Virus record (IMG/VR): IMGVR_UViG_3300035564_000063
Location: 1 to 27,032 of that record
Source of the DNA: a virus
Direction: 5' to 3' (one strand)
DNA length: 27,032 nucleotides
Shown piece after piece: positions 506 to 15,360 of the stretch; within the stretch, counting starts at the first letter, position 1; every line of letters begins with the position of its first letter. A program made the translations under genes and the position numbers. A model generated the notes under the pieces. The model was not told where the DNA came from, did not search any database, and saw only the letters and a list, made by a program, of their open reading frames with translations.

Positions 506-533
506 TTTGACACCAAACTGCGAATAAAGTTCC
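506..533 (-). promoter_or_regulatory. ECF-sigma-like promoter A (leftward)
   Basis: Read on the minus strand, GGAACT (533-528) is followed after exactly 16 bases by GTCAAA (511-506) and then CCATTATC. The -35 AAC and -10 GTC are typical of promoters read by ECF sigma factors (family knowledge). It lies directly after the stop of the 539-736 gene and about 65 bases before the start of the leftmost gene. Element B (2000-2027) is nearly the same sequence, including CGCAG in the spacer and the bases after the -10. Activity is inferred, not shown. Confidence 0.6.
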
Positions 534-538
534 CCAAG

Positions 539-736
539 CTATTGCATTTCTTTCCACCTGCTGGTGTAGTCAAGGCGGCGATTCTCTTCCACCTCGGACA
601 GCTCCGTCGGTTCATGCGCTTCGTAAAAGTGCTGAGTGGCGCAGCGGCGGGAAAGGAACTCTGCGTGAGGCCACGGGAAGGCGGGACAGTCGCAGACGAT
701 CTCGGCGGCAGGGTAGGTGTACTTGGGATAGGACAT
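539..736 (-). CDS. Small hypothetical Cys/His-containing protein (65 aa)
   Basis: The ATG at 736 overlaps the TAA of the upstream gene (TAATG), and AGGAGA precedes it by 6 bases, so start and reading frame are well supported. The protein (MSYPKYTYPAAE...) has Cys-Asp-Cys near residue 15, His near 24, Cys near 32 and two further His residues, a spacing that could hold a metal ion, though no standard zinc-finger pattern is clear. The C-terminal third is acidic and charged (ELSEVEENRRLD). No membrane segment is visible. It is translationally coupled to the 736-888 gene and is the last gene before promoter-like element A. Function is unknown. Confidence 0.65.
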   Translation of the reverse strand: MSYPKYTYPAAEIVCDCPAFPWPHAEFLSRRCATQHFYEAHEPTELSEVEENRRLDYTSRWKEMQ

Positions 737-888
737 TAGAAATCTCCTGCATCATGAGCTGCTGCCATAAAACAGAACAGCAAGACACACTCATCTTTCG
801 TCATGTCAGAAGGAACAAAACGTAAATAGTACGAGTGCCCTTCTGCAATCTTTGCAGCGTAGTTCCAGAAATAACTTTTACTTTTCAT
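736..888 (-). CDS. Small hypothetical protein (50 aa)
   Basis: The chosen start is ATG 888, preceded by GGAGGCTCA at 903-895. The frame can be extended to a GTG at 993, but that would place coding sequence across a strong hairpin, so the shorter form is preferred. The protein begins MKSKSYFWNYAAKIAEGHSY and ends in a moderately hydrophobic stretch (CVLLFCFMAAAHDAGDF). This could be a buried helix or a peripheral membrane contact. Its stop overlaps the next gene's start as TAATG. The 286-base leader upstream is unusually structured. No family is recognised. Confidence 0.65.
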   Translation of the reverse strand: MKSKSYFWNYAAKIAEGHSYYLRFVPSDMTKDECVLLFCFMAAAHDAGDF

Positions 889-894
889 GGCGGT

Positions 895-1167
895 TGAGCC
901 TCCATTATTGCGATGCTGAGCGCTTAGGGAAACTGGCCGGCGGCAAGCAACGTGTTGTGTCAGGGGAGACCACGTTGCTGCCGCCTGTCGCACAGCCGCC
1001 GGACGAGAGGCTCAATCATCGTCAGACTCGGAGCCAGTCGGTAGGATCACCTTTCGGGGTGAAAGTCGAGCTGGTCTTCCTAGCACCTAGCCCCTCTTGA
1101 GGAGGGGCATCGGTGCTGCATTGGCGTTAATCTGTAATACAGAGTGGGCAAGCCCTATCGCGCCAAT
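895..1167 (-). other. Highly structured non-coding region (candidate leader RNA or ncRNA)
   Basis: No convincing gene fills 889-1174, but inverted repeats do. (1) GGCGGC-AA-GCAACGTG (939-954) pairs with CACGTTGCTGCCGCC (971-985), giving 15 bp with one bulge. (2) CCGGCGGC (937-944) could instead pair with GCCGCCGG (995-1002), so two folds compete. (3) TCACC/GGTGA lies near 1047-1063. (4) AGCACC (1082-1087) with GGTGCT (1112-1117) encloses GCCCCTC/GAGGGGC (1090-1096/1102-1108). (5) ATTGGCG (1120-1126) with CGCCAAT (1161-1167) encloses palindromes CTGTAATACAG and GGGCAAGCCC. The region lies between the 1175-1864 and 736-888 genes on the leftward strand. No T-run follows any stem in either direction, so a simple terminator is not obvious. 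Confidence 0.5.
1022..1048 (-). promoter_or_regulatory. Weak ECF-like promoter F (leftward)
   Basis: On the minus strand GATCC (1048-1044) is followed after exactly 16 bases by GTCTGA (1027-1022). The -10 block matches element E exactly. The -35 block differs from GAACC at one of the key AAC positions, so this is the weakest member of the set. It would start a transcript covering the large 939-985 hairpin and then the 736-888 gene. It is kept because spacing and location fit the other elements. Confidence 0.25.
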
Positions 1168-1174
1168 TCCTTGT

Positions 1175-1864
1175 TTATTGCGCTGCTTCCATCTCGCCGA
1201 GCGCTTCGTCGGCGTTGATGCCCTTCGCCGCTGCATCCTTCGCACGCTTTTCATCTTCCATGCGCTGGATGATAACGCCCGTCTTCGTACCCGCCACGCG
1301 GAAGCTGTCGTACAGAGCCTTCCGCATGAGCTTCTTGTCGCCGTCTTTCGCCGCCGAGTCGTCCAGCTTTTTCTGCAGGAACGCCTTGACAAACTCGACC
1401 GTCTTGCCGCTCGCTTCGGCGATAGCGCGCACAACGATGCCCGCACCAGCCACTCCGCCGCCGCCTTCGGCGCGACCCTTACCCCACTTGCCCGCTTGTA
1501 TTTCGCTGTTCAGGTCGTCAATCGCAATGACCATGTCCTCTTCGGACAGCGGTTTGTCCGCCGGAGATGCGAGCTCGTCGCCAAACTTCTGCTCCCCGCC
1601 GTGGCCGGCGAACTTCGCCAGCAGCGAAAGGGGCAGCGGAATGGTGCGAGTGTCGCCGTTGCGGAAGTCCATCCTGACGGAGATCGCGCCGGACTGCAGC
1701 TGAATCACGCCACCGGCCTCGTCGACTTCGATCTTCGTTTCGTCGATCAGCGTTTCCTTATTGACCTTCCGCTTGCCGGCGAATTGCACTTCGCGACCGT
1801 CGCTCATTTTGACAGTCGTGTACTCGGTCTTACTCTTCTTGCTGACTTCGGCTTGTTCGGCCAT
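1175..1864 (-). CDS. Hypothetical phage protein (229 aa), largest gene of the leftward cluster
   Basis: ATG 1864 is preceded by GGAGACTCA, a variant of the ribosome-binding box used by neighbouring genes. The N-terminal 75 residues are beta-rich and read like a small barrel domain (VKMSDGREVQFAGKRKVN, then GGVIQLQSGAISVRMDF, then NGDTRTIPLPL). A glycine-rich linker follows near residues 135-145 (EGGGGVAGAGIVV). The C-terminal part is helical and charged (FVKAFLQKKLDDSAAKDGDKK onward). This layout is compatible with a DNA- or RNA-binding accessory protein, but I recognise no family and no catalytic motif. It has its own leader with several hairpins and promoter-like element B, so it is probably a separate unit from the genes to its right. 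Confidence 0.8.
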   Translation of the reverse strand: MAEQAEVSKKSKTEYTTVKMSDGREVQFAGKRKVNKETLIDETKIEVDEAGGVIQLQSGAISVRMDFRNGDTRTIPLPLSLLAKFAGHGGEQKFGDELASPADKPLSEEDMVIAIDDLNSEIQAGKWGKGRAEGGGGVAGAGIVVRAIAEASGKTVEFVKAFLQKKLDDSAAKDGDKKLMRKALYDSFRVAGTKTGVIIQRMEDEKRAKDAAAKGINADEALGEMEAAQ

Positions 1865-1880
1865 CTGAGTCTCCTAAGAT

Positions 1881-1952
1881 GCAGCCCTTTGTGCCGGCGG
1901 CTGCGTTATTCCGGCTGGTGGAAAACCCACCAGATAGCATTGCTGCTATCTG
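1881..1952 (-). promoter_or_regulatory. Hairpin-rich 5' leader of the 229-codon gene
   Basis: In the 130-base leader between element B and ATG 1864 there are three perfect inverted repeats. CAGATAGCA/TGCTATCTG (1931-1939/1944-1952) has a GCAA tetraloop when read on the minus strand. CTGGTGG/CCACCAG (1915-1921/1927-1933) and GCAGCC/GGCTGC (1881-1886/1899-1904) follow. The first two share bases 1931-1933, so they cannot both form completely. The last one ends just before the AGGAGACTCA ribosome site. It could regulate translation or stabilise the mRNA. No known riboswitch family is recognised. Confidence 0.5.
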
Positions 1953-1999
1953 CTGCGGTTCTCGTTGGGAGGTGAGCCTCGTTTTGTGTGCGATAATGG

Positions 2000-2027
2000 T
2001 TTGACAACGATCTGCGGGGAAAGTTCC
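2000..2027 (-). promoter_or_regulatory. ECF-sigma-like promoter B (leftward)
   Basis: On the minus strand GGAACT (2027-2022), exactly 16 bases, then GTCAAA (2005-2000) followed by CCATTATC. It lies immediately downstream of the stop codon of the 39-codon gene and about 130 bases before ATG 1864. It is a near duplicate of element A: GATAATGGTTTGACA, CTGCG and AAAGTTCCC are shared on the plus strand. A predicted start near 1992 would put the hairpin leader in the transcript. Confidence 0.6.
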
Positions 2028-2035
2028 CAAAGGAA

Positions 2036-2155
2036 TTACAAATTTTGCAACAGCTTCAGCAGCAGCTGGCACGCCTCGATCCGCTTTGGCTGCAGGTTGA
2101 AGCGCGCTTCGCTCAGCATCGCGGCGACTTCGGCGACAAGCTCGGCGTGGGTCAT
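2036..2155 (-). CDS. Micro-gene, 39-aa helical peptide
   Basis: ATG 2155 shares bases with the TGA of the gene before it (ATGA, 2155-2152), and the frame stops at TAA 2038-2036. The peptide starts MTHAELVAEVAAMLSEARFN and continues with LQPKRIEACQLLLKLLQNL. It has regular leucine spacing and reads as two amphipathic helices, with no membrane segment or signal. The coupling to the 59-codon gene and the compact fit between that gene and promoter-like element B support it as real. Function is unknown; a small helical protein that binds another phage or host protein is plausible. Confidence 0.6.
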   Translation of the reverse strand: MTHAELVAEVAAMLSEARFNLQPKRIEACQLLLKLLQNL

Positions 2156-2331
2156 AGCAGCCTCCCTTGCGTCGGCGACTTTGGCTTCGCCAGAATCGCC
2201 CGCATCTTCGCAATGTAGAACCGCGCGACCGCCTGCTCTCGTTTCCAGTCCCGCTTCTTAGCCTTACGCGGCGCTGTTTGGCCGCCGGCCCAAGGGCCGG
2301 ACTCGTCGGCTGCGTCGTTGAAGTCACTCAT
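2152..2331 (-). CDS. Small basic hypothetical protein (59 aa)
   Basis: The preferred start is ATG 2331, which overlaps the stop of the upstream gene and has GGAG eight bases before it; another ATG in frame at 2355 lacks this. The protein begins MSDFNDAADESGPWAGGQ, then has a strongly basic stretch (APRKAKKRDWKREQAVARF) and a helix ending in AILAKPKSPTQGRLL. The basic centre suggests nucleic-acid contact, but no fold is recognised. Its stop overlaps the start of the 39-codon gene. It belongs to a chain of overlapping genes running from 3176 to 2036. Confidence 0.65.
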   Translation of the reverse strand: MSDFNDAADESGPWAGGQTAPRKAKKRDWKREQAVARFYIAKMRAILAKPKSPTQGRLL

Positions 2332-2536
2332 CGCCAAGCTCCTCAAGCGCGTCATTTGTGGCTATGTAAACACAGCCGTAGACATGCGCGCTTTCGTTAA
2401 GACTGCTGATTGTCCTAAAGTATCTGTGTAAGCTGCCTACAAGACTGCCCACCAGCACAGTGTTTCCTGTTTGCAGCTCGAGTCGCTTTACTTGTCTCGC
2501 TTTATCCACCAGTTTTCTCCCAATGTCCATCCCCAT
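2324..2536 (-). CDS. Hypothetical protein (70 aa)
   Basis: The frame runs from ATG 2536 (or the second ATG at 2530) to TGA at 2326-2324, overlapping the genes on both sides. The sequence has a basic amphipathic start (GRKLVDKARQVKRLEL), a beta-prone middle (GNTVLVGSLVGSLHRYF) and an acidic end (DALEELGDE). There is no clear ribosome site because the start lies inside the 3' end of the preceding gene, so translation probably depends on coupling. No family is recognised. The exact start is uncertain. Confidence 0.55.
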   Translation of the reverse strand: MGMDIGRKLVDKARQVKRLELQTGNTVLVGSLVGSLHRYFRTISSLNESAHVYGCVYIATNDALEELGDE

Positions 2537-2717
2537 TTAATTCATACCGCTGCCCCTTGCCCAGCCCCAGTCCAACACCCTCTCGCTGGAAGCACTTTTC
2601 ATCCATGCTCGCCCACGAGCCGCGAGCTGTCTTGGCATCGTAGAACTTCGTGGCTATGTCATCCCCGCAGAGCTGACACGCGATCGGCGGCTTGCCGAGC
2701 CAGAATTTAGAGGTCAT
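2502..2717 (-). CDS. Small Cys-rich phage protein, zinc-ribbon-like (71 aa)
   Basis: The start is fixed at ATG 2717 by an ATGA overlap with the stop of the upstream gene. Cys14-x2-Cys17 (CQLC) and Cys42 are followed by a glycine-rich signature (GVGLGLGKGQRYEL). From memory this arrangement, a Cys pair, a W-x-x-M stretch and a GLG-x-GKGQ-x-Y tail, recurs in small hypothetical proteins of many phages. There the second half usually also has a Cys pair; here the partner of Cys42 is Asp39 (MDEKC), so the metal site may be incomplete. Role unknown, probably structural zinc binding. Confidence 0.65.
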   Translation of the reverse strand: MTSKFWLGKPPIACQLCGDDIATKFYDAKTARGSWASMDEKCFQREGVGLGLGKGQRYELNGDGHWEKTGG

Positions 2718-2854
2718 TTGACAAACCCTTTCTCCCGCATCCACGCCTTGTTTACTTCTTGGCAGTAAGCATGCGCCTCATCGAGCTGCGATGTGGGGAG
2801 TGATGCTGCTGCGTATCCGGCGGCGAAAAGTGCAAGTGCAATCAGTATCTTCAC
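2714..2854 (-). CDS. Micro-gene, 46-aa secreted or membrane-anchored peptide
   Basis: A GTG start at 2854 overlaps the TGA of the preceding gene (GTGA), with AGGAGG eight bases upstream. The N-terminus (MKILIALALFAAGYAAAS) is a classic signal peptide or membrane anchor with a Lys at position 2. The remaining 28 residues are soluble and charged (QLDEAHAYCQEVNKAWMREK), with a single Cys at 31. There is no lipobox Cys after the hydrophobic stretch, so it is not an obvious lipoprotein. With the membrane peptide encoded just upstream it forms a membrane/periplasm pair of unknown purpose. Confidence 0.65.
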   Translation of the reverse strand: MKILIALALFAAGYAAASLPTSQLDEAHAYCQEVNKAWMREKGFVK

Positions 2855-2988
2855 GAAAGGCCTCCTGCGTAGACGTAGAGGGTTGAAAGAACGAGGATGG
2901 CGAGGAAGCCGCCGACTGTCCACCATACTGCGGGGGGAGTCGGCGGCACTTCGCCCGCAAGGTACCGCTTGCCGGCATAGTCGTTCAC
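2851..2988 (-). CDS. Micro-gene, 45-aa single-span membrane protein
   Basis: GTG 2988 overlaps the stop of the upstream gene (GTGA), and its own TGA at 2853-2851 overlaps the next GTG. The peptide begins MNDYAGKRYLAGEVPPTPPA, followed by a membrane span of about 20 residues from VWWTVGGFLA to LSTLYVYAGGLS. The double overlap on both sides is the main evidence that it is translated. The size and topology would suit a small holin-like or accessory membrane protein, but there is no lysis enzyme next to it, so I make no functional claim. Confidence 0.65.
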   Translation of the reverse strand: MNDYAGKRYLAGEVPPTPPAVWWTVGGFLAILVLSTLYVYAGGLS

Positions 2989-3176
2989 GAGCGAAGCCCC
3001 AATACTTCTTTAGCGTACTTTTCTTTCTCTCCGCTACGCCATTCGCGGCTGCTCCACTTCCCTGCCGTCGTGGGTTCCCAGACGCGTGCCGGCGGCTCGT
3101 ACTTCGCGCGGCGAATTGCCTCGCTCGGTTCAAGTGTCTTGCGCTCATTCGTCCTGACGTTGTGGATGTATTCCAT
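2985..3176 (-). CDS. Hypothetical protein (63 aa)
   Basis: ATG 3176 is preceded by GAGGCTTA, a variant of the ribosome-binding box used in this cluster. The stop overlaps the next start as GTGA. The protein begins MEYIHNVRTNERKTLEPSEA and is rich in Arg, Lys, Glu and Trp (WEPTTAGKWSSREWRSGEKE), with no hydrophobic span. It is the first gene after promoter-like element D, so it probably heads the operon that runs down to 2036. No family is recognised. Confidence 0.65.
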   Translation of the reverse strand: MEYIHNVRTNERKTLEPSEAIRRAKYEPPARVWEPTTAGKWSSREWRSGEKEKYAKEVLGLRS

Positions 3177-3221
3177 TTAAGCCTCGCTGTTGTCGGCGGC
3201 GAAATTGCCGACCGATACACG

Positions 3222-3248
3222 TTAGACAATTCCTGCGATCACGAGTTC
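3222..3248 (-). promoter_or_regulatory. ECF-sigma-like promoter D (leftward)
   Basis: On the minus strand GAACT (3248-3244) is followed after exactly 16 bases by GTCTAA (3227-3222), then CGTGTATC. The -35 block overlaps the last codons of the 3239-3595 gene, and the element fills the only gap of the 3595-2036 gene chain. The expected transcript start near 3215 leaves about 40 bases of leader before ATG 3176. GCAG occurs inside the spacer as in elements A and B, shifted by one base. Confidence 0.6.
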
Positions 3249-3595
3249 AACAGTATGCGGCTTCCTGCGGGGATTATTGCGGAGCGCGCCGCCAGCTGAC
3301 AGTCCCTGTCGCACTGTGCCAGCACTTCCTCCGTCCACCCCATCTTCGCGCAGTAGGCATTACTCAGCACATTAAATCCTTGCGCCACCAGCGCGACTGC
3401 GTGCAGCCCATGCCGCGATTGGTGCTTAGCGAATATCTCTTGCATCACCGCTGTTGCCTGCCCCGCCATTGCTGCGTGCATTACGAGGAAGTACATATCC
3501 CTTCCATACTTCCTAACAACGTCGTGGAAGTGCGCCGGTATATCTTCCAGATCAGTGTCTGTGCCATTCAGCGGCATTGCTTCTTCTGCGCTCAT
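3239..3595 (-). CDS. Hypothetical phage protein (118 aa)
   Basis: ATG 3595 overlaps the TGA of the upstream helix-turn-helix gene (ATGA). The N-terminus is acidic (GTDTDLEDIPAHFHDVVRKY). The rest is predicted helical, with an Ala-rich stretch (MHAAMAGQATAVMQEIFAKH) and three Cys residues near the end (AYCAKMGW, AQCDRDC). It has no signal or membrane segment. Coupling to the DNA-binding gene suggests they act together or are simply co-regulated. No family is recognised with confidence. Confidence 0.7.
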   Translation of the reverse strand: MSAEEAMPLNGTDTDLEDIPAHFHDVVRKYGRDMYFLVMHAAMAGQATAVMQEIFAKHQSRHGLHAVALVAQGFNVLSNAYCAKMGWTEEVLAQCDRDCQLAARSAIIPAGSRILLNS

Positions 3596-4008
3596 TTCTT
3601 TGCTCCTTCTTTCATAAGCCTGTCAATATCCACGCCAAGCGCAGATGCCTTTTCTAGTGTTGCTGCTATCCCTGCTCCCCCTGTTTCATCCGGCGCATCT
3701 CCCCCATCAAGGAGCGAGGGCGGCGCGATGCGGGCTGGCGGCGAAGACAGAAGCTCTGGCGCTACTCGTACTTGCTGTTGCAGCGCAAGCAAGTTCTCCA
3801 GCGTCTTATCCGCTTCCGCTTGTGTTGGAAGCCTGTTCCCCGCTGTATCTTGCCAGCTTTCCCCTCTCACAATCCTCCCCACCTGCCCAATCGAGACGCC
3901 GAAGTGCCGCGACAGCGCACCTTGCGTATAGCCCTCCCCGTAAAGCTGTCTGATCTGCTGCACCTTTTCCAGCGAAAGCTTGCGTGTTGCGTTACCCTTG
4001 TTTAGCAT
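3592..4008 (-). CDS. Helix-turn-helix DNA-binding protein (138 aa)
   Basis: Residues 12-52 (LSLEKVQQIRQLYGEGYTQG, then ALSRHFGVSIGQVGRIVRGESW) form a clear helix-turn-helix of the Hin/resolvase-like kind, with the recognition helix near SIGQVGRIVRG. This module is common in small phage regulators and beside HNH endonuclease domains; no HNH motif is present here. The C-terminal half is a low-complexity linker plus a short helix (SALGVDIDRLMKEGAKK), perhaps for oligomer formation. Start ATG 4008 is preferred over ATG 4011 because AAGGAGA sits five bases before the former and only one before the latter. It follows a long inverted repeat and promoter-like element C, so it may bind its own control region. 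It is the only candidate regulator in the window. Confidence 0.75.
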   Translation of the reverse strand: MLNKGNATRKLSLEKVQQIRQLYGEGYTQGALSRHFGVSIGQVGRIVRGESWQDTAGNRLPTQAEADKTLENLLALQQQVRVAPELLSSPPARIAPPSLLDGGDAPDETGGAGIAATLEKASALGVDIDRLMKEGAKK

Positions 4009-4033
4009 CATGTCTCCTTGTTGTCTTCATCAT

Positions 4034-4222
4034 CCTATCTCCTTGCTCTTATCCTCTTCCCTCTAGCGGGATTCCCCAAACGGGCGCAGGGATTTTCGGA
4101 AGTTAAGAGGATCTTAAAAAGAAAAAAAATTAATAAAACAAAAATCCCTAAGTCCTTTTTCCCTTTCCAGTTTCCTCGATTTGGGGAAACCCGCTTGAGG
4201 CGAGAGGATACGAGTAGATAGG
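4034..4222. repeat. Long imperfect inverted repeat around an A/T-rich core
   Basis: Arms at 4034-4080 and 4180-4222 are inverted copies. Aligned from the inner ends, 37 of 43 positions match, with one 4-base gap. The inner ends read TTTGGGGAA then CCCGCT; the outer ends read AGATAGG. The 99-base core is A/T-rich and holds nested inverted repeats AGGGATTTT/AAAATCCCT (4088-4096/4141-4149) and TTAAGA/TCTTAA (4103-4108/4112-4117). It could be a small non-autonomous mobile element, although no clear target duplication is seen. It could instead be a giant leader hairpin in the transcript from element C, ending just before the ribosome site of the helix-turn-helix gene. Confidence 0.65.
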
Positions 4223-4249
4223 CAATGTGTGTATGGTGTGAACATAATG

Positions 4250-4277
4250 ATAGACCACGCCCTGAGCATTTAGTTCC
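4250..4277 (-). promoter_or_regulatory. ECF-sigma-like promoter C (leftward)
   Basis: On the minus strand GGAACT (4277-4272), exactly 16 bases, then GTCTAT (4255-4250) and CATTATG. CAG occurs at spacer positions 8-10, the same place as in elements A, B and G. It would drive the 4008-3239 pair, and perhaps further, with a leader of about 230 bases that contains the whole 4034-4222 inverted repeat. Confidence 0.55.
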
Positions 4278-4315
4278 CAAGCAAATGAAATTTAATTGCC
4301 GCTGAAGCGCCAACA

Positions 4316-4331
4316 GCTCCCCGAAGGGAGC
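4316..4331. other. Short GC-rich hairpin after the rightmost leftward operon
   Basis: GCTCCC (4316-4321) and GGGAGC (4326-4331) are perfect complements with a 4-base CGAA centre. It lies just downstream, on the leftward strand, of the stop codon of the 4349-4525 gene, so it may mark the end of that operon. No T-run follows on either strand, so an intrinsic terminator cannot be claimed. Confidence 0.3.
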
Positions 4332-4348
4332 CGCTAGCTTGTGACGGG

Positions 4349-4525
4349 TTACTTCTCGTCAGAACGCTCGAACATCGGGCAGTTATGCTTATAATTCCAG
4401 CCACAGCTGCTGTGCCCAAATTCCCCTGCGTTCGGACAGTTCACTCGTTCAAGGTCGTCTTGAGTGTCTTCCCTCCCGACGAGTTCCTTGAATTGCTCCT
4501 TCGTCATTTCTTCCTTTATTCGCAT
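4349..4525 (-). CDS. Small Cys-containing hypothetical protein (58 aa)
   Basis: ATG 4525 has GGAGGT five bases upstream, so it is chosen over the in-frame ATG at 4549. The N-terminal half is charged and helical (MRIKEEMTKEQFKELVGRED). The C-terminal half has Cys30, Cys41 and Cys49 plus two His (CPNAGEFGHSSCGWNYKHNC), a plausible small metal-binding knuckle. It is the last gene of the 5266-4349 chain and starts one base after the stop of the 19-codon membrane peptide gene. Function is not known. Confidence 0.65.
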   Translation of the reverse strand: MRIKEEMTKEQFKELVGREDTQDDLERVNCPNAGEFGHSSCGWNYKHNCPMFERSDEK

Positions 4526-4526
4526 A

Positions 4527-4586
4527 TTACCTCCAGAGCGCCAGCGCACCGACCGCCAGCATGATTAAGATGAATGATTCAAGCAT
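4527..4586 (-). CDS. Micro-gene, 19-aa single-span membrane peptide
   Basis: The full peptide is MLESFILIMLAVGALALWR: a membrane-spanning helix with an acidic N-terminus and a Trp-Arg end, an expected topology for a small inserted peptide. Its ATG (4586-4584) shares one base with the TAA of the gene before it (TAATG), GGAGAGG lies a few bases upstream, and the next gene's ribosome site and ATG follow directly. This triple fit supports translation. Such tiny phage membrane peptides often modulate host membrane proteins or lysis, but nothing here shows which. It is too short to judge by homology. Confidence 0.55.
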   Translation of the reverse strand: MLESFILIMLAVGALALWR

Positions 4587-4786
4587 TATCCTCTCCTTGC
4601 CGCGATACGCTCGGCCATCTTCGCCTTGTTCGCCGCTGACATGCGAATACGCTGCCGAAAGAACTTTCCGCACACAGAGCACTTCCATTGCTGGAATCGC
4701 TCCAGTGTTTTACAGTCCTCCCAGTAGACATACTGCTGCCCCGAGTGTAACGCCATTAAGCGAACACCACAATGCTTACTTATCAT
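4586..4786 (-). CDS. Small zinc-knuckle-like basic protein (66 aa)
   Basis: ATG 4786 is preceded by GGAGGCTCA with 7-8 bases spacing. The protein has Cys36-x2-Cys39 (KCSVCGKFF) followed by a strongly basic helix (FRQRIRMSAANKAKMAERIA), and additional Cys6 and Cys25 that could complete a four-ligand site. The CSVCGKFF core resembles one half of a classical zinc finger. DNA or RNA binding is a fair inference; no specific family is named. Its stop overlaps the micro-gene that follows (TAATG). Confidence 0.65.
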   Translation of the reverse strand: MISKHCGVRLMALHSGQQYVYWEDCKTLERFQQWKCSVCGKFFRQRIRMSAANKAKMAERIAARRG

Positions 4787-4886
4787 AGCGTGAGCCTCCA
4801 GTTATCCCAACCCCGCCCAGCAGCCGCTGAACGGCGCACCAAATCAGTGCGAGAATACCGGATTGCGCCGGTATTCCCTCACTCAC
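4776..4886 (-). CDS. Micro-gene, 36-aa putative membrane peptide
   Basis: A GTG at 4886 overlaps the TGA of the upstream gene (GTGA), and the frame ends at TAA 4778-4776, slightly inside the next gene. The peptide begins MSEGIPAQSG, has a hydrophobic centre (ILALIWCAVQRLLGGVGI) that could span or lie on a membrane, and ends TGGSRYDK. The stop-start overlap is the best evidence. The Gln-Arg within the hydrophobic part makes a simple transmembrane helix less certain. Without this gene, 4787-4882 would be an unexplained gap in an otherwise gapless operon. Confidence 0.5.
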   Translation of the reverse strand: MSEGIPAQSGILALIWCAVQRLLGGVGITGGSRYDK

Positions 4887-5266
4887 TCGGCTTCCAATTC
4901 CGCCATCAGTTTTGCATTAAACCACGCCATTGCCTCGGCATACGTCGTACCCCGTTTATCTGCAATCGCTTGGATATTCGGATCAATCTTCGCCACCGCC
5001 GACTTCCGCATGTTCCAGTCCGTGCTCGTTGTGAGGTGTGTGACCATTTCCTGAATCGCCGCCGCGCGCATTGCCTCGGTCACGGTAATCACTGTTCCAT
5101 CTTTTTGCTTCCGTGCGATTGCCGCATTGTCCCTGATCTTCTGCTCATACCCGTGCATTGCTGCATCATCGTGCGAAACCGTTGCCGCAGCGGAATCGAA
5201 AACGATTGCCGCGATACCGTCTTCAAACGTAAACACCAATTTCCCGCCTTCCCGATTGCATTTCAT
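4883..5266 (-). CDS. Hypothetical phage protein (127 aa), first gene of the leftward operon
   Basis: ATG 5266 is preferred because GGGGGCTCA, a variant of the cluster's ribosome-binding box, precedes it; an in-frame ATG at 5278 overlaps that box. The N-terminus is beta-rich (KLVFTFEDGIAAIVFDSAAA). The remainder is helical, with conserved-looking stretches DGTVITVTEAMRAAAIQEMV, STDWNMRKSA and GTTYAEAMAWFNAKL. From memory, proteins of this size with a VTEAMR segment occur as uncharacterised proteins in other phages. There is no membrane segment. It lies directly downstream of promoter-like element E, about 40 bases from the expected transcript start. Confidence 0.75.
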   Translation of the reverse strand: MKCNREGGKLVFTFEDGIAAIVFDSAAATVSHDDAAMHGYEQKIRDNAAIARKQKDGTVITVTEAMRAAAIQEMVTHLTTSTDWNMRKSAVAKIDPNIQAIADKRGTTYAEAMAWFNAKLMAELEAE

Positions 5267-5319
5267 TTGAGCCCCCATTATTTCATTGAACGGCGCAGGA
5301 TTGCATCCGTTACATACAA

Positions 5320-5346
5320 TCAGACCGCGCCATTTCCCAATGGTTC
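5320..5346 (-). promoter_or_regulatory. ECF-sigma-like promoter E (leftward)
   Basis: On the minus strand GAACC (5346-5342), exactly 16 bases, then GTCTGA (5325-5320) and TTGTATG. It is the only candidate of this type for the 5266-4349 operon. The phased TGTTACAA boxes at 5361-5388 sit immediately upstream of its -35, where an activator would bind. Confidence 0.5.
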
Positions 5347-5359
5347 AATCATTCTGGAA

Positions 5360-5388
5360 TTGTTACAATTTGTTACAAAGCTTACAAC
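5360..5388. repeat. Three helically phased TGTTACAA-type boxes
   Basis: TGTTACAA at 5361-5368, TGTTACAA at 5371-5378 and the degenerate CTTACAAC at 5381-5388 are spaced exactly 10 bp apart. With the preceding T the first two are 9-bp palindromes (TTGTTACAA). One-turn spacing places all three on the same DNA face, typical of cooperative protein binding. They lie between the leftward promoter E and the rightward control sequences. Confidence 0.6.
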
Positions 5389-5392
5389 GGAT

Positions 5393-5413
5393 GTGCGCGC
5401 ACCATGCTGGTGC
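5393..5413. promoter_or_regulatory. Pair of adjacent palindromes (operator-like)
   Basis: GTGCGCGCAC (5393-5402) is fully self-complementary. GCACCA (5399-5404) and TGGTGC (5408-5413) form a 6-bp inverted repeat around TGC, overlapping it. Both lie in the divergent control region and have no coding explanation. GTGCGCAC recurs at 5721-5728. Confidence 0.4.
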
Positions 5414-5423
5414 ATGGCAATGG

Positions 5424-5453
5424 TTGACAATTCTAGTCATGTATTGTTATGTT
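5424..5453 (+). promoter_or_regulatory. Possible sigma-70-type promoter (rightward)
   Basis: TTGACA (5424-5429), an 18-bp spacer and TATGTT (5448-5453) form a recognisable sigma-70-like arrangement facing the rightward genes. The -35 is perfect; the -10 matches four of six consensus bases. It lies about 350 bases before the first rightward gene and next to the two direct repeats at 5451-5482, which could block or activate it. Confidence 0.35.
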
Positions 5454-5482
5454 GCATTGCACCATTCCTTGTCGCATTGCAC
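5451..5482. repeat. Two direct repeats 20 bp apart
   Basis: GTTGCATTGCAC (5451-5462) and GTCGCATTGCAC (5471-5482) match at 11 of 12 positions and are offset by exactly 20 bp, two DNA turns. They overlap or follow the -10 of the possible sigma-70-type promoter, a typical place for repressor operators. Confidence 0.5.
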
Positions 5483-5567
5483 AACGTCGCCGTCGCCATC
5501 CATCTGCCGACAATTCGACAGTGGCGAATGTTCGTCAGTGCCGATTGTTCGACACGGTGTTGTCGGC

Positions 5568-5582
5568 TGCGAATGATTCGCA
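5568..5582. promoter_or_regulatory. Perfect 15-bp palindrome (operator-like)
   Basis: TGCGAATGATTCGCA is a perfect inverted repeat with a single central base. A related half-site GCGAATG followed by TTCG occurs at 5524-5533. Both are in the divergent control region without a supported gene, consistent with binding sites for a dimeric regulator. The helix-turn-helix protein at 3592-4008 is one candidate, by inference only. Confidence 0.45.
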
Positions 5583-5718
5583 TTGTCATCGGCTTGGTGC
5601 GCTGCAGCAATCCGACGCCGCCGACGATGCCGCCTCCCGCTTCGAGGACGGCGGGGGGCAAAAAGAAATCTCAAGCGCGCGCACAAATGCACTATCTAAT
5701 TTTTGCACTGGTGTGAGA

Positions 5719-5744
5719 ATGTGCGCACGTTATGCCATCATAAC
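5719..5744 (+). other. Stem-loop element, copy 1 (similar to 15225-15258)
   Basis: ATGTGCGC is followed by GTTATG-CCAT-CATAAC (5729-5744), a perfect 6-bp stem with a 4-base loop. The downstream copy after the capsid gene reads GTTATC-CCGT-GATAAT. The third-from-loop layout is kept while the closing G-C pair becomes C-G. It lies 33 bases upstream of the -35 of promoter-like element G. Confidence 0.45.
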
Positions 5745-5776
5745 ATCCTCCCGTTTGCTGTCCGCCACCAGTCCCC

Positions 5777-5803
5777 GAACTTTAGCCCCAGCGGATTGTC
5801 CAA
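5777..5803 (+). promoter_or_regulatory. ECF-sigma-like promoter G (rightward)
   Basis: GAACT (5777-5781), exactly 16 bases, GTCCAA (5798-5803). The spacer starts TTA and has CAG at positions 8-10, as in element A. It is the only member facing the virion genes found in the gaps examined. The expected transcript start is about 5809-5811, at the ATG of the first rightward gene, implying a leaderless or nearly leaderless message or a later start codon. Confidence 0.5.
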
Positions 5804-5808
5804 CAGTC

Positions 5809-6387
5809 ATGAGTGCGATTCTTCAGTCCCCCGATCTGCTTGCTGAAATAGCTGGCCATGCTCCCACTATGGGTGCAGTGGCGAAGATGAATTATAGTCA
5901 TGATGATATGATCGACTACATCATCACGCACCCCGGGTGCAAGCAGAATGATCTCGCCGCCCGCTACGGTTACACGCCCTCGTGGATTAGTAATGTAATG
6001 GCCTCGGATGCGTGGCAAAGTAAGATGGCGAAGCGGCGCGCCGAACTCGTAGATCCGACTCTCGTGGCAACGATAGAGGAACGCTTCGCCGCCCTCGCCG
6101 ACCGCTCCCTGACGCGGCTGATGGAGAAGCTCGACGCACCCACCGTCAGCGACAATGTCGTCTTAAAAGCAGTGGAGCTTGGCGCGAAGGCTCTCGGCGT
6201 GGGAGGTAATGCAGCCCCGACCGCCCCCGCCGCCGACCACCTCGCTCAGCTCGCTAACCGCCTTATTGACCTCCAAGCAACCGTCCGTACCCGCCTTCAA
6301 ACAGGAGTAACCCTCGATGCCGAAGTCACCCTCGTACAAGAAGTCGCCGCCACAAGTGTCCTCGAAGATCGGGAGGGCGGGCAATGA
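5809..6387 (+). CDS. Helix-turn-helix protein, probable small terminase-like packaging protein (192 aa)
   Basis: Residues 30-72 (SHDDMIDYIITHPGCKQNDL, then AARYGYTPSWISNVMASDAW) form a helix-turn-helix. The rest is helical and resembles small phage proteins found just before large terminases, with KAVELGAKALGVGGNAAP near residue 125-140 as a typical feature. Small terminases recognise phage DNA and start packaging, so I infer that role from position and fold; a regulator is the alternative. The frame is open back to 5449, but composition before 5809 is that of control DNA. ATG 5809 is chosen because the segment SAILQSPDLLAEIAGHAPTM reads as part of the family; ATG 5887 is possible. No ribosome site precedes ATG 5809. 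Confidence 0.65.
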   Translation: MSAILQSPDLLAEIAGHAPTMGAVAKMNYSHDDMIDYIITHPGCKQNDLAARYGYTPSWISNVMASDAWQSKMAKRRAELVDPTLVATIEERFAALADRSLTRLMEKLDAPTVSDNVVLKAVELGAKALGVGGNAAPTAPAADHLAQLANRLIDLQATVRTRLQTGVTLDAEVTLVQEVAATSVLEDREGGQ

Positions 6388-6505
6388 TGAAGGCGGGCGA
6401 TTTGTTAGCCGCGACCTCGCGGGCACTAGTCCACTTAAAGAGCAGTTTGAGCCAACTGATGCGGAGCCTGTTCGCCAGCATGCAAAGATGGCGGGCGCAT
6501 GCTAA
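6317..6505 (+). CDS. Small protein with EQFEPT motif, overlapping in another frame (62 aa)
   Basis: This frame overlaps the last 71 bases of the preceding gene. ATG 6317 has AGGAG nine bases upstream. Its C-terminal part (PLKEQFEPTDAEPVRQHAKM) closely matches the start of the 7065-7289 product (PLQEQFEPTPSQPIRQHARM): 16 of 24 aligned residues are identical, and most nucleotide differences there are synonymous (for example CGC CAG versus AGA CAA for Arg-Gln). That is good evidence that this frame is, or recently was, translated. The protein ends right after MAGAC, where its relative continues for 45 more residues, so this may be a shortened duplicate. Function unknown. Confidence 0.55.
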   Translation: MPKSPSYKKSPPQVSSKIGRAGNDEGGRFVSRDLAGTSPLKEQFEPTDAEPVRQHAKMAGAC

Positions 6506-6542
6506 GCCGCCGACACCTTACCAACAACTCTTAGGAGAAATA

Positions 6543-6719
6543 ATGGCAACTCTTGCAGATCTGCAAACCGCAGCCGCCAACCAGTCAACGCAGCTGGATC
6601 TCGTCGTGGCGAAGGTAGCGCAACTGAAGACGGTGACCCCGCTGGATCAAGCTGCTGTAGATGCGGTCGCCGCTACGCTGTCGGCGAATGATACGAAGAT
6701 CGCGGCGGCGCTGGCGTAA
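6543..6719 (+). CDS. Small coiled-coil-like protein (58 aa)
   Basis: ATG 6543 has AGGAGA five to six bases upstream. The frame extends back to 6384, but the upstream part has no ribosome site and overlaps the EQFEPT gene, so the short form is used. The sequence (MATLADLQTAAANQSTQLDL, then VVAKVAQLKTVTPLDQ) is Ala/Leu-rich with heptad-like spacing and no Cys or Trp, suggesting a small helical oligomer. Short proteins like this are common beside phage head genes. Its stop overlaps the next start as TAATG. Confidence 0.7.
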   Translation: MATLADLQTAAANQSTQLDLVVAKVAQLKTVTPLDQAAVDAVAATLSANDTKIAAALA

Positions 6720-6835
6720 TGGCTATTAGGAAGAAGGCGCCGTATCGGACGGGCAGAGTTCCTGCGCCGGTGCGTGTTGGGCCTCTTCCTAAGAAGCCAC
6801 GCCAGATTCGCACTCGCGCGCCGAGGTTTAGATGA
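6719..6835 (+). CDS. Micro-gene, 38-aa very basic peptide
   Basis: The ATG at 6719 shares one base with the preceding TAA, and the TGA at 6833-6835 overlaps the next ATG, so it is a properly coupled cistron. The product (MAIRKKAPYRTGRVPAPVRV, then GPLPKKPRQIRTRAPRFR) has 13 Arg/Lys, no acidic residue, and many Pro. It should be disordered and bind nucleic acid or an acidic protein surface. A role in DNA packaging or condensation is conceivable but not shown. Confidence 0.65.
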   Translation: MAIRKKAPYRTGRVPAPVRVGPLPKKPRQIRTRAPRFR

Positions 6836-7068
6836 GCCCCGTCGAAGCCGCTATTGCGGCCTTTCAAGAGCAGATAGATTCCTTTGCAACGGCGGCAAGC
6901 CAGGTCGGCTTCGCCGGCTCCAGCGGCTACTTCCAGCAGCGCGCATATGTCCTCGGGCAGGCCTACTTACTACGCGTGCAGTCCCTCGGCGTGGAGGGAG
7001 ACGTGTCCGCGACGGAACGCCTTTACAAGACCGGAACCGTTCTCCTAAGCACAACGGAGCCTAAATGA
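6832..7068 (+). CDS. Hypothetical structural-region protein (78 aa)
   Basis: ATGA overlaps on both sides fix start (6832) and stop. The product (MSPVEAAIAAFQEQIDSFAT, then AASQVGFAGSSGYFQQRAYV) is helical with a short Gly-Ser turn, lacks Cys and membrane segments, and ends TGTVLLSTTEPK. It sits in a run of coupled small genes leading into the large terminase, where small proteins of unknown role are usual in podovirus and siphovirus genomes. No family is named. Confidence 0.75.
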   Translation: MSPVEAAIAAFQEQIDSFATAASQVGFAGSSGYFQQRAYVLGQAYLLRVQSLGVEGDVSATERLYKTGTVLLSTTEPK

Positions 7069-7289
7069 AAAACCTAATGGATATAAACCCCCTCCAGGAA
7101 CAGTTTGAGCCGACTCCATCTCAACCCATTAGACAACATGCTAGGATGGCAGGCGATCCGGTTCACAGTGTCGCTGGAGGGGGCTACCAATGGGGAGGGC
7201 ATGGGAAGGTGTATTATGGCGCTGATGCGAAGGCGAAGGCGGCGAAACAGGGAGCGGCAGCTTATGCGAATGGATATAAGGGCAAATGA
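7065..7289 (+). CDS. Small protein with EQFEPT motif (74 aa)
   Basis: The start overlaps the previous stop (ATGA) and the stop overlaps the next start. The N-terminal third contains NPLQEQFEPTPSQPIRQHAR, shared with the 6317-6505 product. The rest is Gly/Ala/Lys-rich (VAGGGYQWGGHGKVYYGADA, then KAKAAKQGAAAYANGYKGK), with many aromatic residues and no acidic cluster, compatible with a flexible nucleic-acid-contacting tail. It is the longer and presumably functional copy of the pair. Role unknown. Confidence 0.7.
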   Translation: MKNLMDINPLQEQFEPTPSQPIRQHARMAGDPVHSVAGGGYQWGGHGKVYYGADAKAKAAKQGAAAYANGYKGK

Positions 7290-7597
7290 GCCGCATCACC
7301 CTCGACGGGAAGCTAGCTGGTGAAAGCGTCTCGACGGTCTTCGACTTTATCAGCAGGCTCGCAACCGGCGAAACGATCAGCACTGCAACAGTTGTCGCCA
7401 GCGTCTACTCGGGCGTTGATGCAACTCCAAGCGCTGTCATCTCCGGTTCGGCAAGTATCTCCGGCACGAAAGTCACGCAGCTCGTCGTTGCGGGGGTCTT
7501 AGGAGTGATGTATAAGCTGGTGTGCACAATCACGACGAGCGCCTCGCAGACGCTTCAGCTGTCCGCTTATTTAGCAATTGTGCCGGACACCGAATGA
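7286..7597 (+). CDS. Beta-rich phage structural-type protein (103 aa)
   Basis: Coupled at both ends by ATGA overlaps. The sequence is almost entirely beta-prone: ESVSTVFDFISRLATGETIS, VASVYSGVDATPSAVISGSA, then KVTQLVVAGVLGVMYKLVCT. The GETI, SVYSG and SG-x-V segments recur in small immunoglobulin-like phage proteins that accompany head or neck genes, as far as I recall. I take it as a small virion or decoration-type protein; nothing in the sequence shows the exact position in the particle. Confidence 0.7.
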   Translation: MSRITLDGKLAGESVSTVFDFISRLATGETISTATVVASVYSGVDATPSAVISGSASISGTKVTQLVVAGVLGVMYKLVCTITTSASQTLQLSAYLAIVPDTE

Positions 7598-7857
7598 GCG
7601 CTTCTGTACATACACTTCCTATCTGGAAAAAGGGAAGTACTCCAGCAGAGTGGTTAGAAGAACTAGCTGGACTGGCTAGAGAAAACCCTGAACGCTGGGC
7701 ACAAATTGCTGTAGTATTTAACGAGCTTAACGAAGAAAAGATGCCGACAAAAACTCGTTATTACAGCTATGGATTGCTTACCAATACAGATATACTCGGG
7801 GCCCTTCAGGTAGGAATACTAGAAGTATTTGACTACATGAAAGGTCGTCGCGGATGA
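7594..7857 (+). CDS. Hypothetical phage protein (87 aa)
   Basis: ATG 7594 overlaps the preceding TGA, and the stop overlaps the terminase start. The product starts MSASVHTLPIWKKGSTPAEW, has a helical centre (LEELAGLARENPERWAQIAV) and ends with TRYYSYGLLTNTDILGALQV. Proteins with this W-x-x-ELA and TKTRYY-TNTD pattern occur as uncharacterised phage proteins upstream of terminases, from memory. The gene is visibly richer in A and T than its neighbours, which may indicate separate acquisition. Confidence 0.7.
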   Translation: MSASVHTLPIWKKGSTPAEWLEELAGLARENPERWAQIAVVFNELNEEKMPTKTRYYSYGLLTNTDILGALQVGILEVFDYMKGRRG

Positions 7858-9410
7858 GCGCCGTTACTTACAACGCCGACCTGATCGAGGCGTTCGCGGG
7901 GACTTTTATCAGCCCGCGCTACGACAACAGGGCGGCTACCCCTCAGATGCATCGGGCGGCTTGGGCACTCTACGCGAGTGCGCATCCTCAGTGTATGGTG
8001 ATAGCGCCGCGCGAGCACGCTAAGTCGACCGCCCTCACGACCGTTTACATCCTAGCAGAGGTGCTGTTTCGGCAGAGCGACTACGTTATATTGGTGGGCA
8101 GCACGGAAGAGTTCGCCGCCGAGCAGCTCGGGAACGTCTCCGACGAGCTGCGGTCGAACGATGACCTTATCAGGGAGTTCGGCATCAAGGGCTTCGAGAT
8201 GGATTCGCGCACTGACATAATCATTGCGATGAATGACGGACACAAGTTCCGCATCCTGTGCCGCGGTGCAGAGCAGCGGATTCGCGGGCGGCTGTGGAAG
8301 GGCAAGCGGCCTAACCTCCTTGTTGGGGATGATCTGGAAGATGACGAACAAGTCGAAAATGCTGACCGCCGAACCAAGTTCCGTCGCTGGTTCTTCCGAG
8401 CTGCGAAGCAAGCTCTGGGCCGCTACGGTAAGACGCGCCTTCATGGAACTGTCTTGCATGACGACTCCCTCCTTAACCGTAACCTGCGCTGCGTCAACCC
8501 CGAGTGCAAGCACCTTATGCGGGAGAACACGCCCGACTACAGTTGCGTTAGGTGCGGAACGATTGGCTCGTGGAAGCATCTGTATTACAAAGCTCACTCT
8601 TCCTTTGATGACTTCTCTAATATACTTTGGCCGGAGCAGTGGCCGGAAGAGCGCCTCCGCGGCCGCCGCCAAGAGTTCATCGACGGAGGTGATGCCGCCG
8701 GCTACTCGCAGGAATTTCTCAACGACCCACTAGATAACAGCGAAGCATTCTTGAAGGGAGGTGACTTTCTCCCGATGACGGACGAAGACTACGACTCGCC
8801 GAAGATTGTTTGTGCGGCCGCCGACTTCGCCGTATCGCGGGCTGATAAGGCAAACCGCACGGCCTTCGTGGTCGGCGGCAAGGATGTTATGAACACTGTC
8901 CACCATATCGACTTCCGAGCAGGGCGGTGGGATCCGACTGAGTGGATTGACCAGATGTTCGACATTCAGGTGACGCACGCTCCCCAAGTCTTCTTCGTGG
9001 AGGATGGAGTTATCTGGAAAGCGGTCAAGTCGATGATCTACCGGGAGATGCAGGTGCGTGATATCCTCATCAATTTCGAAGCTGTTCTCCCTGTAAAGGA
9101 CAAGGGCACTCGGGGTCGCCCCTTTCAACGGAGGATGCGCGCCGGTCAGTGTCGCTTTGACAAACGGCACGAGAATTACTACGGATTCGAGCAGGAGGCG
9201 CTCCGCTTCACCGGCACAGCCGCCGCCACCCTTGACGATTACTTCGACGCCGCCGCCCTCCTGTCGCGAGGTTTCGACGATCTCGCCCACGTCGAGGTCG
9301 AAGATTTCTACGACGAGGACGATTGGGAAATGGAAAAGGGCTTTTGGAATCGCAAGCGTTCTAACGGAGTCAGGGATATACAGCCTGGCTTCCGGACGGG
9401 CTACCAGTGA
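7854..9410 (+). CDS. terL: Terminase large subunit (518 aa)
   Basis: The motor and nuclease that packages DNA into the procapsid. The ATPase domain shows a Walker A-like loop at residues 50-59 (IAPREHAKST) and a Walker B at 154-161 (NLLVGDDLED). The nuclease domain has Asp324 (AAADFAV), Glu383 (FVEDGV) and Asp461/462/465 (DDYFDAA), the expected acidic triad of the RNase H-like fold. Length fits the family. Unusual is a four-Cys segment between the domains: Cys213, Cys218, Cys231 and Cys234 (CVNPEC, CVRCG), which looks like a zinc ribbon. The start is coupled to the previous gene (ATGA). Confidence 0.93.
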   Translation: MSAVTYNADLIEAFAGTFISPRYDNRAATPQMHRAAWALYASAHPQCMVIAPREHAKSTALTTVYILAEVLFRQSDYVILVGSTEEFAAEQLGNVSDELRSNDDLIREFGIKGFEMDSRTDIIIAMNDGHKFRILCRGAEQRIRGRLWKGKRPNLLVGDDLEDDEQVENADRRTKFRRWFFRAAKQALGRYGKTRLHGTVLHDDSLLNRNLRCVNPECKHLMRENTPDYSCVRCGTIGSWKHLYYKAHSSFDDFSNILWPEQWPEERLRGRRQEFIDGGDAAGYSQEFLNDPLDNSEAFLKGGDFLPMTDEDYDSPKIVCAAADFAVSRADKANRTAFVVGGKDVMNTVHHIDFRAGRWDPTEWIDQMFDIQVTHAPQVFFVEDGVIWKAVKSMIYREMQVRDILINFEAVLPVKDKGTRGRPFQRRMRAGQCRFDKRHENYYGFEQEALRFTGTAAATLDDYFDAAALLSRGFDDLAHVEVEDFYDEDDWEMEKGFWNRKRSNGVRDIQPGFRTGYQ

Positions 9411-9577
9411 GCATGATTACCACAGGCGGCGAAAAGAGTCGGGCGGCGGAACGTCCACCAACGTTTCTTTGCAGACCACTAGGGCGTCTCAAGTCGTGCC
9501 TACAGGCCCGGCCTTACCAGACGGTTTTGACTTTGCTTGGTTTTGACCTTCTCAGCCCCGCCCCCAAATTATGCTGA
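9407..9577 (+). CDS. Possible small gene between terminase and portal (56 aa)
   Basis: A GTG at 9407 overlaps the terminase TGA (GTGA), and the frame runs to TGA 9575-9577, overlapping the portal start by 7 bases. The product (MSMITTGGEKSRAAERPPTF, then LCRPLGRLKSCLQARPYQTV) is basic with three Cys and a hydrophobic end. Fit between the flanking genes is the only evidence. There is no good ribosome site and no family. The alternative is that 9411-9570 is a non-coding spacer. Confidence 0.35.
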   Translation: MSMITTGGEKSRAAERPPTFLCRPLGRLKSCLQARPYQTVLTLLGFDLLSPAPKLC

Positions 9578-11622: not shown

Positions 11623-11909
11623 GTCGCGCTATTACCGAGACAGAATTCAATGATTGGAAGCTGCATCCAGTCACAATCGCTGTGATGGAAGTCCTTGCAG
11701 CGCGGAGAGAGGAACTCCGCCAGTTATGGGAAGGCGGCTCCTTCACCGACTATGATACAGCAACAACTGCCCTTGTTAATGTAGGTAACATAGGCACGTG
11801 CCGAGGCCTTGCCTTCGTCATGGAACTGACCTACGAGCAATACATAGGAGAGATAGATGATGAAAAACCAATCGGGCCTGAAACCCCTGGGGGTAGCGGT
11901 GCTCATTAA
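11619..11909 (+). CDS. Small portal-associated hypothetical protein (96 aa)
   Basis: Start overlaps the portal stop (ATGA). The product (MSRAITETEFNDWKLHPVTI, then AVMEVLAARREELRQLWEGG) has the W-x-x-HPVT and ELRQLWEGG pattern of small proteins that often follow the portal gene in this kind of phage. It is helical in its first half and ends in a flexible Gly/Pro tail. Its last 53 bases overlap the start of the GroES-like gene in another frame. A role in head assembly is inferred from position only. Confidence 0.75.
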   Translation: MSRAITETEFNDWKLHPVTIAVMEVLAARREELRQLWEGGSFTDYDTATTALVNVGNIGTCRGLAFVMELTYEQYIGEIDDEKPIGPETPGGSGAH

Positions 11910-12228
11910 GGCTTATGAACCAGAGCGTAAGGGCGGGCAGATTGTCCTTCCTGACGCCGTTGCCAGCAAAATGTCTATGGTAGACCAGCGCGCAACGGTT
12001 ATTGCTATCGGCCCTGTTGCGTGGAAAGATGAAGGTTACTGGAAGCCTTTATTTTTTGGACTGTTTCGTCGGTGGAAACAAGTAGACCGAGCAAAGGTAG
12101 GAGACAAAGTACTGGTTACGAAGTATGCAGGTTTTATGGCCGGCGAGAGCATTTCAGCTGATAGTCAGCAATATCGCCTTGTAAATGACAGGGACATTTT
12201 CTGTGCTATTGAAGGAGAGCAAGCATGA
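11857..12228 (+). CDS. GroES-like co-chaperonin (123 aa)
   Basis: The product follows the Cpn10 pattern. KPLGVAVLIKAYEPE is the first strand pair. GGQIVLPDAVASKMSM matches the mobile loop that contacts GroEL. RATVIAIG, then KVGDKVLVTKYAG, and a C-terminal YRLVNDRDIFCAIEGE are the remaining barrel strands. In GroES the equivalent order is GGIVL, GEVLAVG, KVGD and YLIMSESDILAIVE. An insertion with aromatic residues (GYWKPLFFGLFRRWKQ) replaces the usual roof loop. Phage GroES-like proteins, such as T4 gp31, pair with host GroEL to fold the capsid protein, and the location before scaffold and capsid genes fits. ATG 11857 has GGAGAG upstream. No GroEL is in the window. Confidence 0.85.
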   Translation: MMKNQSGLKPLGVAVLIKAYEPERKGGQIVLPDAVASKMSMVDQRATVIAIGPVAWKDEGYWKPLFFGLFRRWKQVDRAKVGDKVLVTKYAGFMAGESISADSQQYRLVNDRDIFCAIEGEQA

Positions 12229-13088: not shown

Positions 13089-13091
13089 GCT

Positions 13092-13619: not shown

Positions 13620-13630
13620 CGGAGATTCTA

Positions 13631-14269: not shown

Positions 14270-14281
14270 AGGAGAACGATT

Positions 14282-15202: not shown

Positions 15203-15224
15203 TAGTTAGTTAGACTGCTTGTCA

Positions 15225-15258
15225 TGTGCGCCCGTTATCCCGTGATAATTGGCGCACA
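15225..15258 (+). other. Compound stem-loop after the capsid gene, copy 2
   Basis: TGTGCGCC (15225-15232) pairs perfectly with GGCGCACA (15251-15258). Inside, GTTATC (15234-15239) pairs with GATAAT (15244-15249) around CCGT, one pair being G-T. No T-run follows, so it is more like a processing or stabilising hairpin than an intrinsic terminator. A 30-codon frame starting at ATG 15224 covers it but has no ribosome site. Confidence 0.55.
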
Positions 15259-15298
15259 GAACAAGAAGTTTAGCCAGCCCTACGAGCTAGCAAGAGTG

Positions 15299-15315
15299 TA
15301 CCGGCACATCCGGTA
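15299..15315 (+). other. Second hairpin in the post-capsid gap
   Basis: TACCGG (15299-15304) and CCGGTA (15310-15315) form a perfect 6-bp stem with a CACAT loop. It lies 45 bases before the start of the next gene. With the preceding stem-loop it makes 15203-15360 the only structured gap within the virion operon. Confidence 0.45.
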
Positions 15316-15360
15316 AGGCAATACTTGGTGGACTTGTCCATCACACTTAGGAGATTCTTA

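Follow-up and report, generated by a model that had tools for sequence, protein, structure and literature searches.

Which sigma factor reads the promoters of a podovirus-like phage was the question raised by a two-block element, GAACY-N16-GTC, that recurs between the genes of IMG/VR record IMGVR_UViG_3300035564_000063 (27,032 nt, analyzed over its whole length and hereafter called the window; 10% of it is intergenic). A first-pass annotation of this DNA had described seven such elements, A to G, as promoters of the extracytoplasmic function (ECF) sigma type with an invariant 16-bp spacer, and had proposed an ECF sigma of either the host or the phage as their reader. The comparisons described below indicate that the elements are almost certainly sigma-E-type promoters. 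In many phages of this uncultured family, an RpoE-like sigma domain forms part of a giant late protein, which is probably located in the virion and ejected with the DNA.

Exactly six matches to GAACY-N16-GTC were found in the window (509-532, 2003-2026, 3225-3248, 4253-4276 and 5323-5346 on the minus strand, and 5777-5800 on the plus strand), against 1.34 expected with a standard deviation of 1.08; in 100 dinucleotide shuffles a count of six was never reached. The spacer was indeed invariant, as spacers of 15 or 17 gave no match in the window. The six sites (A, B, C, D, E and G) lie mainly within gaps, and none is wholly inside a gene, although site D shares 10 bases with the 3' end of gene 3239-3595. 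The window sites were scored with leave-one-out position weight matrices (PWM) trained on other contigs only. Sites E and G had low scores because the first G of GGAAC is absent, and both have counterparts at the same position in relatives, those of site E reading GGAACCANT...GTCTGATAC. The seventh proposed member, site F (1022-1048, minus strand, GATCC...GTC), was below the PWM threshold and was rejected, so that six of the seven elements were retained. The proposal that every leftward gap longer than about 60 bases contains one site was slightly too strong, since the gap 4757-4882 has none.

Relatives were collected as 20 IMG/VR contigs via the terminase and the first rightward gene, and further ones via the sigma alignment and the capsid. 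The strict motif, GGAACY-N16-GTC(A/T)A, was counted in 30 contigs including the window, in which 9% of the sequence is intergenic. Equal frequency inside genes had been named as an outcome that would speak against a promoter family; the strict motif with a spacer of 16 occurred at 78 intergenic and 7 genic positions, and every other spacer tested gave 0-1 intergenic occurrences. Some of the 30 contigs are closely related, and a non-redundant set was therefore made by removing redundant ones. In this set, 53 of 59 sites were intergenic, and all but one of these 53 are directed into the next gene, for the most part with 20-160 nt between the site and the gene start. Leave-one-out matrices recovered sites in unseen contigs and gave few matches in reversed sequence. 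A chance origin of the motif was ruled out by the spacer control and the relatives.

The consensus of the family is GGAACTT-N16-GTCTAAT, or in fuller form approximately AT..CTggGGAACTTt..(AagT)..gtGTCTAAT. The known sigma-E promoter elements are GGAACTTTT at -35 and GTCAAA at -10 (PMC1804206), and the consensus for sigma-E/RpoE (ECF02-type) promoters is GGAACTT at -35 and TCTAA/TCAAA at -10 with a spacing of about 16 (PMC1804206, PMC2893595). The phage consensus equals these elements at the same spacing, and its position upstream of genes and direction into them (52/53) are those of sigma-E promoters. The comparison with ECF consensus sequences, the fixed spacer, the intergenic and gene-facing placement and the conservation in divergent relatives thus all support the ECF-promoter proposal, and transcription is predicted to start at the elements.

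At the first rightward gene, the start codon is located exactly 11 nt past the G of GTC in the window (ATG at 5809) and in G005, G007 and G039, three relatives whose motif is exact. G016 and G019, where the spacer is 17, also fit this distance; other relatives have a leader. Because a transcription start at the usual distance would fall at the start codon, the late mRNA from site G is, judging from this position, probably leaderless. The same distance bears on the possibility that the sites are operators of a phage repressor or activator and no promoters. A leftward helix-turn-helix (HTH) gene in the window (3592-4011) could encode such a regulator, but the element is asymmetric, its two blocks are the known sigma-E -35 and -10 at one fixed spacing, nearly all sites face the next gene, and start codons lie at a fixed distance past GTC in several relatives, which makes operators very improbable.

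An extra conserved promoter, GGAACTAAAGTAACAGTCTCGGGTC, was observed directly 3' of the giant gene and ahead of the final rightward genes in three contigs (G013, 2094-2117, plus strand; G018, 6147-6170, minus strand; G009, 11527-11550, plus strand).

The search for an ECF sigma, which had been recommended together with the promoter proposal, identified sigma regions 2 and 4 (PF04542 and PF08281; Sigma70_r2 and r4_2), in this order, within one giant late open reading frame of relatives, with a length of at least 1,343 amino acids in the contigs searched first. Sigma-bearing giants were found at nineteen loci, some of them near-identical (15 loci, L080-L094, and four further contigs). The proteins are 1,337-2,205 amino acids (aa) long, and the sigma domain starts at aa 416-1240. 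Its best PDB sequence match is E. coli sigma-E (E 5.7e-13). The best Foldseek match of the modelled domain, whose fold matches ECF sigmas, is sigma-E structure 1or7, and modelled region 4 superposes on 2h27, sigma-E region 4 on its -35 DNA, with a root-mean-square deviation of 1.4-1.5 A; the model is reliable for the two sigma regions only (predicted local distance difference test, pLDDT, 70-86) and unreliable in the flanks. In the recognition helix, GTVRS...R, the T, R, S and second R are invariant among 13 sequences, and a small tree placed most giant-protein sigma domains in one group near RpoE. The phage sigma is predicted to bind the motif. The domain consists of regions 2 and 4 only, as in ECF (group IV) sigmas, but it is internal to a giant and not a small stand-alone protein; this layout lowers the case for an ordinary ECF factor and leaves unaffected the case that it works like one. 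No anti-sigma gene was noticed beside the phage sigma, a partner for which no systematic search was made.

Toward the end of the structural operon, past the head-closure protein, the giant gene follows a conserved gene whose product has about 350-380 aa. At the same place, a related annotated record lists a 'phage stabilization protein' and, after it, structural proteins and large hypothetical ones. We infer from this order that the giant gene occupies a podoviral ejection-gene position. Hydrophobic Gly/Ala-rich segments are present on both sides of the sigma domain, and PcfJ-like domains (in four members of the set) and LPD23 (in one) were found beside it. The polyvalent proteins of Iyer et al. 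(2017, PMC5512222) combine many domains in one very large chain, and their injection together with the DNA is predicted. The giants are likewise very large and multidomain, some members of the set carrying LPD23, a zincin-like stretch or PcfJ-like domains, and fit injected polyvalent proteins, although, in contrast to the giants, the polyvalent-protein paper makes no mention of 'sigma' (PMC5512222).

Two giants showed further features. The divergent 2,205-aa giant of L094 (6281-12895) contains the sigma domain, LPD23 and the weak zincin-like stretch, which is below the Pfam cut-off, and its middle part matches Pseudomonas phage proteins, one of them annotated as structural. The sigma-less giant of G004 (11731-15717) matches phrog_2206, 'virion RNA polymerase', over aa 203-537 (E 1.5e-12), probably through a shared non-polymerase region.

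The end of the contig truncates the giant gene of the window. The portion present here (25304-27031) stops short of the place, farther downstream, where the sigma domain is located in syntenic relatives, and the last module of this portion (aa 472-552) matches solely sigma-carrying giants (6/6), which suggests that the window phage probably has the sigma domain as well. A search of IMG/VR with the N-terminus of the window giant, made to extend the gene, found no relative.

Sigma-positive contigs that cover the early region (G001, G005, G009, G015, G018, G023, G028 and G039) had 3-7 strict sites each, and sigma-negative G004 and G042 had none. Sigma-negative G040 had one strict site within a repeat-like GGAACCCGTCAAACC stretch, which looks like a chance repeat. 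Sigma-70-like promoters were depleted in motif-bearing phages (24 versus 58 in the reversed control) and enriched in motif-less relatives (28 versus 5). The Fisher p for this contrast, 6e-8, was calculated from counts pooled over partly related contigs and is optimistic because such contigs are not independent. In the isolate Alcaligenes phage vB_Af_QDWS535 (L240), which infects Alcaligenes faecalis, a near-perfect site (48814-48840, plus strand, PWM 30.2) is located 59 nt, counted from GTC, before the first gene of the late operon.

Sigma-E-type promoters would drive both the leftward operons, with early and replication-type genes, and the rightward packaging and structural operon, and their most likely reader is host core RNA polymerase carrying the phage-supplied RpoE-like sigma domain. 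If the giant protein is injected with the DNA, the sigma would already be in the cell ahead of any phage gene expression, and, standing outside the host's membrane-bound anti-sigma control, it could act immediately. Alternatively, a sigma made with the structural proteins might act on late promoters in the same infection, with early genes using an undetected system. The location of the giant gene in the late operon, the late operon predicted to be driven by site G, and the good site of QDWS535 at its late operon only are consistent with such a late role. However, in this phage family most sites precede leftward genes, which include replication-type genes (functions read from the sequences), and few sigma-70-like promoters remain, so that a late-only role is improbable. 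Delivery by the virion is favoured because only in this way could a late-made sigma act early on the leftward operons.

Several observations weigh against this explanation. The place of the giant in the virion is deduced indirectly, from its synteny, its size and its hydrophobic stretches. In the window phage itself no sigma was observed, as the contig ends before its expected position, and over most of its length the window giant is closest to that of sigma-negative G038 (27.6%). A sigma-70-like promoter, TTGACA-18-TATGTT, in which TG precedes the second hexamer, is present in the divergent gap (5424-5453, plus strand) and is a possible start for a host sigma. G020 and G038 kept the promoters and have few sigma-70-like sites, but their giants lack the sigma cassette, and profile searches with loose cut-offs found no other sigma in these two contigs. 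Promoters can therefore exist without a detected phage sigma. No sigma gene was found in QDWS535 either, despite its near-perfect site. For these three phages, the obvious candidate for the reader is host RpoE, which may also be the ancestral one.

The giants of G020 (5811-9641) and G038 (12395-16138) belong to the same family, with the cassette of about 200 aa missing at its usual place; the sigma cassette is a presence/absence module, and its presence or absence in close relatives provides a natural experiment on a change of phage transcription strategy.

Host RpoE is normally held by RseA. Phage entry might disturb the envelope so that RseA is degraded and the host's own RpoE (ECF02) is freed to read the promoters in general, the sigma of the giant being auxiliary or acting elsewhere. 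The equality of the motif with the host-type sigma-E consensus (PMC1804206) and its presence in G020, G038 and QDWS535 would be explained in this way. A metagenome-assembled genome (MAG) of Rhodocyclaceae, with which a contig carrying a capsid relative was binned, also carries a canonical rpoE operon in which the downstream gene is RseA-like. On the other hand, nineteen loci retain the sigma domain in the giant, and motif-bearing phages have few sigma-70-like sites, so that reading by host RpoE would leave the phage reliant on a stress factor that is sequestered under normal conditions. This alternative is considered rather unlikely. It is reasonably probable that a virion-delivered ECF sigma domain, possibly with help from host RpoE, brings the host's RNA polymerase to the early as well as the late operons. 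That the phage lineage packages an ECF sigma in an ejected giant, and that injection switches host polymerase to sigma-E-type promoters both early and late, is held slightly less firmly, the balance being in its favour.

The Rhodocyclaceae MAG contig and a prophage-like relative in the alphaproteobacterial isolate Zavarzinia marina (L130, a 465-kb contig; capsid identity 62%) point only weakly to the hosts. No strict motif was found within the 20.9 kb of L130 that was read. The Zavarzinia sigma matches were set aside; they fall in frames of 186-262 aa that look like ordinary host genes.

Phages are known to deliver RNA polymerases, or enzymes that modify the polymerase, into the cell, and to produce sigma factors once infection has begun. 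The N4 virion RNA polymerase (vRNAP) and gp96 of Thermus phage P23-45, a tape measure fused to an RNA polymerase (PMC10770324), are likewise giant virion or late proteins that act in transcription, for which entry together with the DNA and initiation of phage transcription are proposed; in the present phages, in contrast, the cargo would be a sigma that recruits host polymerase, and its presence in the virion is deduced from genes. E. coli sigma-E (ECF02) uses the same -35 and -10 elements and matches the phage domain by sequence and fold, but here the promoters are in a phage genome and drive nearly all operons, and the domain is internal to a giant protein. Related ECF sigma domains of crAss-like phages and Microcystis phage MaAM05 are annotated as separate genes of ordinary size. 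INPHARED phages contained no giant of this kind, all matches being ordinary sigma genes, and among 50,697 phage records none had a sigma within a giant protein of the ejection type. The open-access literature searched contained no description of a virion or injected ECF sigma, although an earlier description elsewhere is possible. If true, a virion-borne sigma matched to stress-type promoters across the phage genome would give phages a new means of taking over the host polymerase at time zero. Such a 'virion sigma' strategy would differ both from the use of virion RNA polymerases and from that of sigmas made after infection. Its predictions are clear and can be tested with laboratory phages and strains, for which the cultured QDWS535 is a tractable system.

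The predicted promoters and the assigned genes of the window are listed in Table 1.

Table 1. Predicted promoters and genes in the window
Feature	Coordinates	Strand	Assignment	Basis
Site A	506-533	-	Predicted promoter GGGGAACTTTATTCGCAGTTTGGTGTCAAACC for gene 3-440	Leave-one-out PWM 27.5
Site B	2000-2027	-	Predicted promoter GGGAACTTTCCCCGCAGATCGTTGTCAAACC for gene 1175-1864	Leave-one-out PWM 23.8
Site D	3222-3249	-	Predicted promoter TTGAACTCGTGATCGCAGGAATTGTCTAACG for leftward genes from 3176	Leave-one-out PWM 18.9
Site C	4250-4277	-	Predicted promoter GGGAACTAAATGCTCAGGGCGTGGTCTATC for gene 3592-4011 (HTH protein)	Leave-one-out PWM 17.4
Site E	5320-5346	-	Predicted promoter TTGAACCATTGGGAAATGGCGCGGTCTGATTG for gene 4883-5278	Pattern match; counterparts in relatives
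Site G	5777-5803	+	Predicted promoter CGAACTTTAGCCCCAGCGGATTGTCCAACAGTC of rightward packaging/structural operon	Pattern match; counterparts in relatives
First rightward gene (192 aa)	5809-6387	+	Small-terminase-like position	15 relatives, 56-70% identity; upstream of terminase large subunit
Terminase gene	7854-9410	+	Terminase large subunit	phrog_38, E 2.4e-57
Capsid gene	14282-15202	+	Major capsid protein	81-89% identity in most relatives; homologues annotated so
Head-closure gene	18438-19856	+	Head-closure/stabilization protein Hc3	phrog_578, E 9e-38
Gene before giant gene	24171-25301	+	Gene preceding giant gene in most relatives	Synteny
Giant gene (partial)	25304-27031	+	N-terminal 576 aa of giant late (ejection-type) protein	Cut by contig end; synteny

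Two further features of the window were observed. The gene at 11857-12228 (plus strand) occupies the spot, between portal and capsid, where related records annotate a GroES-like co-chaperonin. A perfect 9-bp hairpin, CAGATAGCAGCAATGCTATCTG, followed by GTGGGTTTTC, is present at 1931-1952 on the minus strand, between promoter B and gene 1175-1864, and is possibly an attenuator or an mRNA stabiliser.

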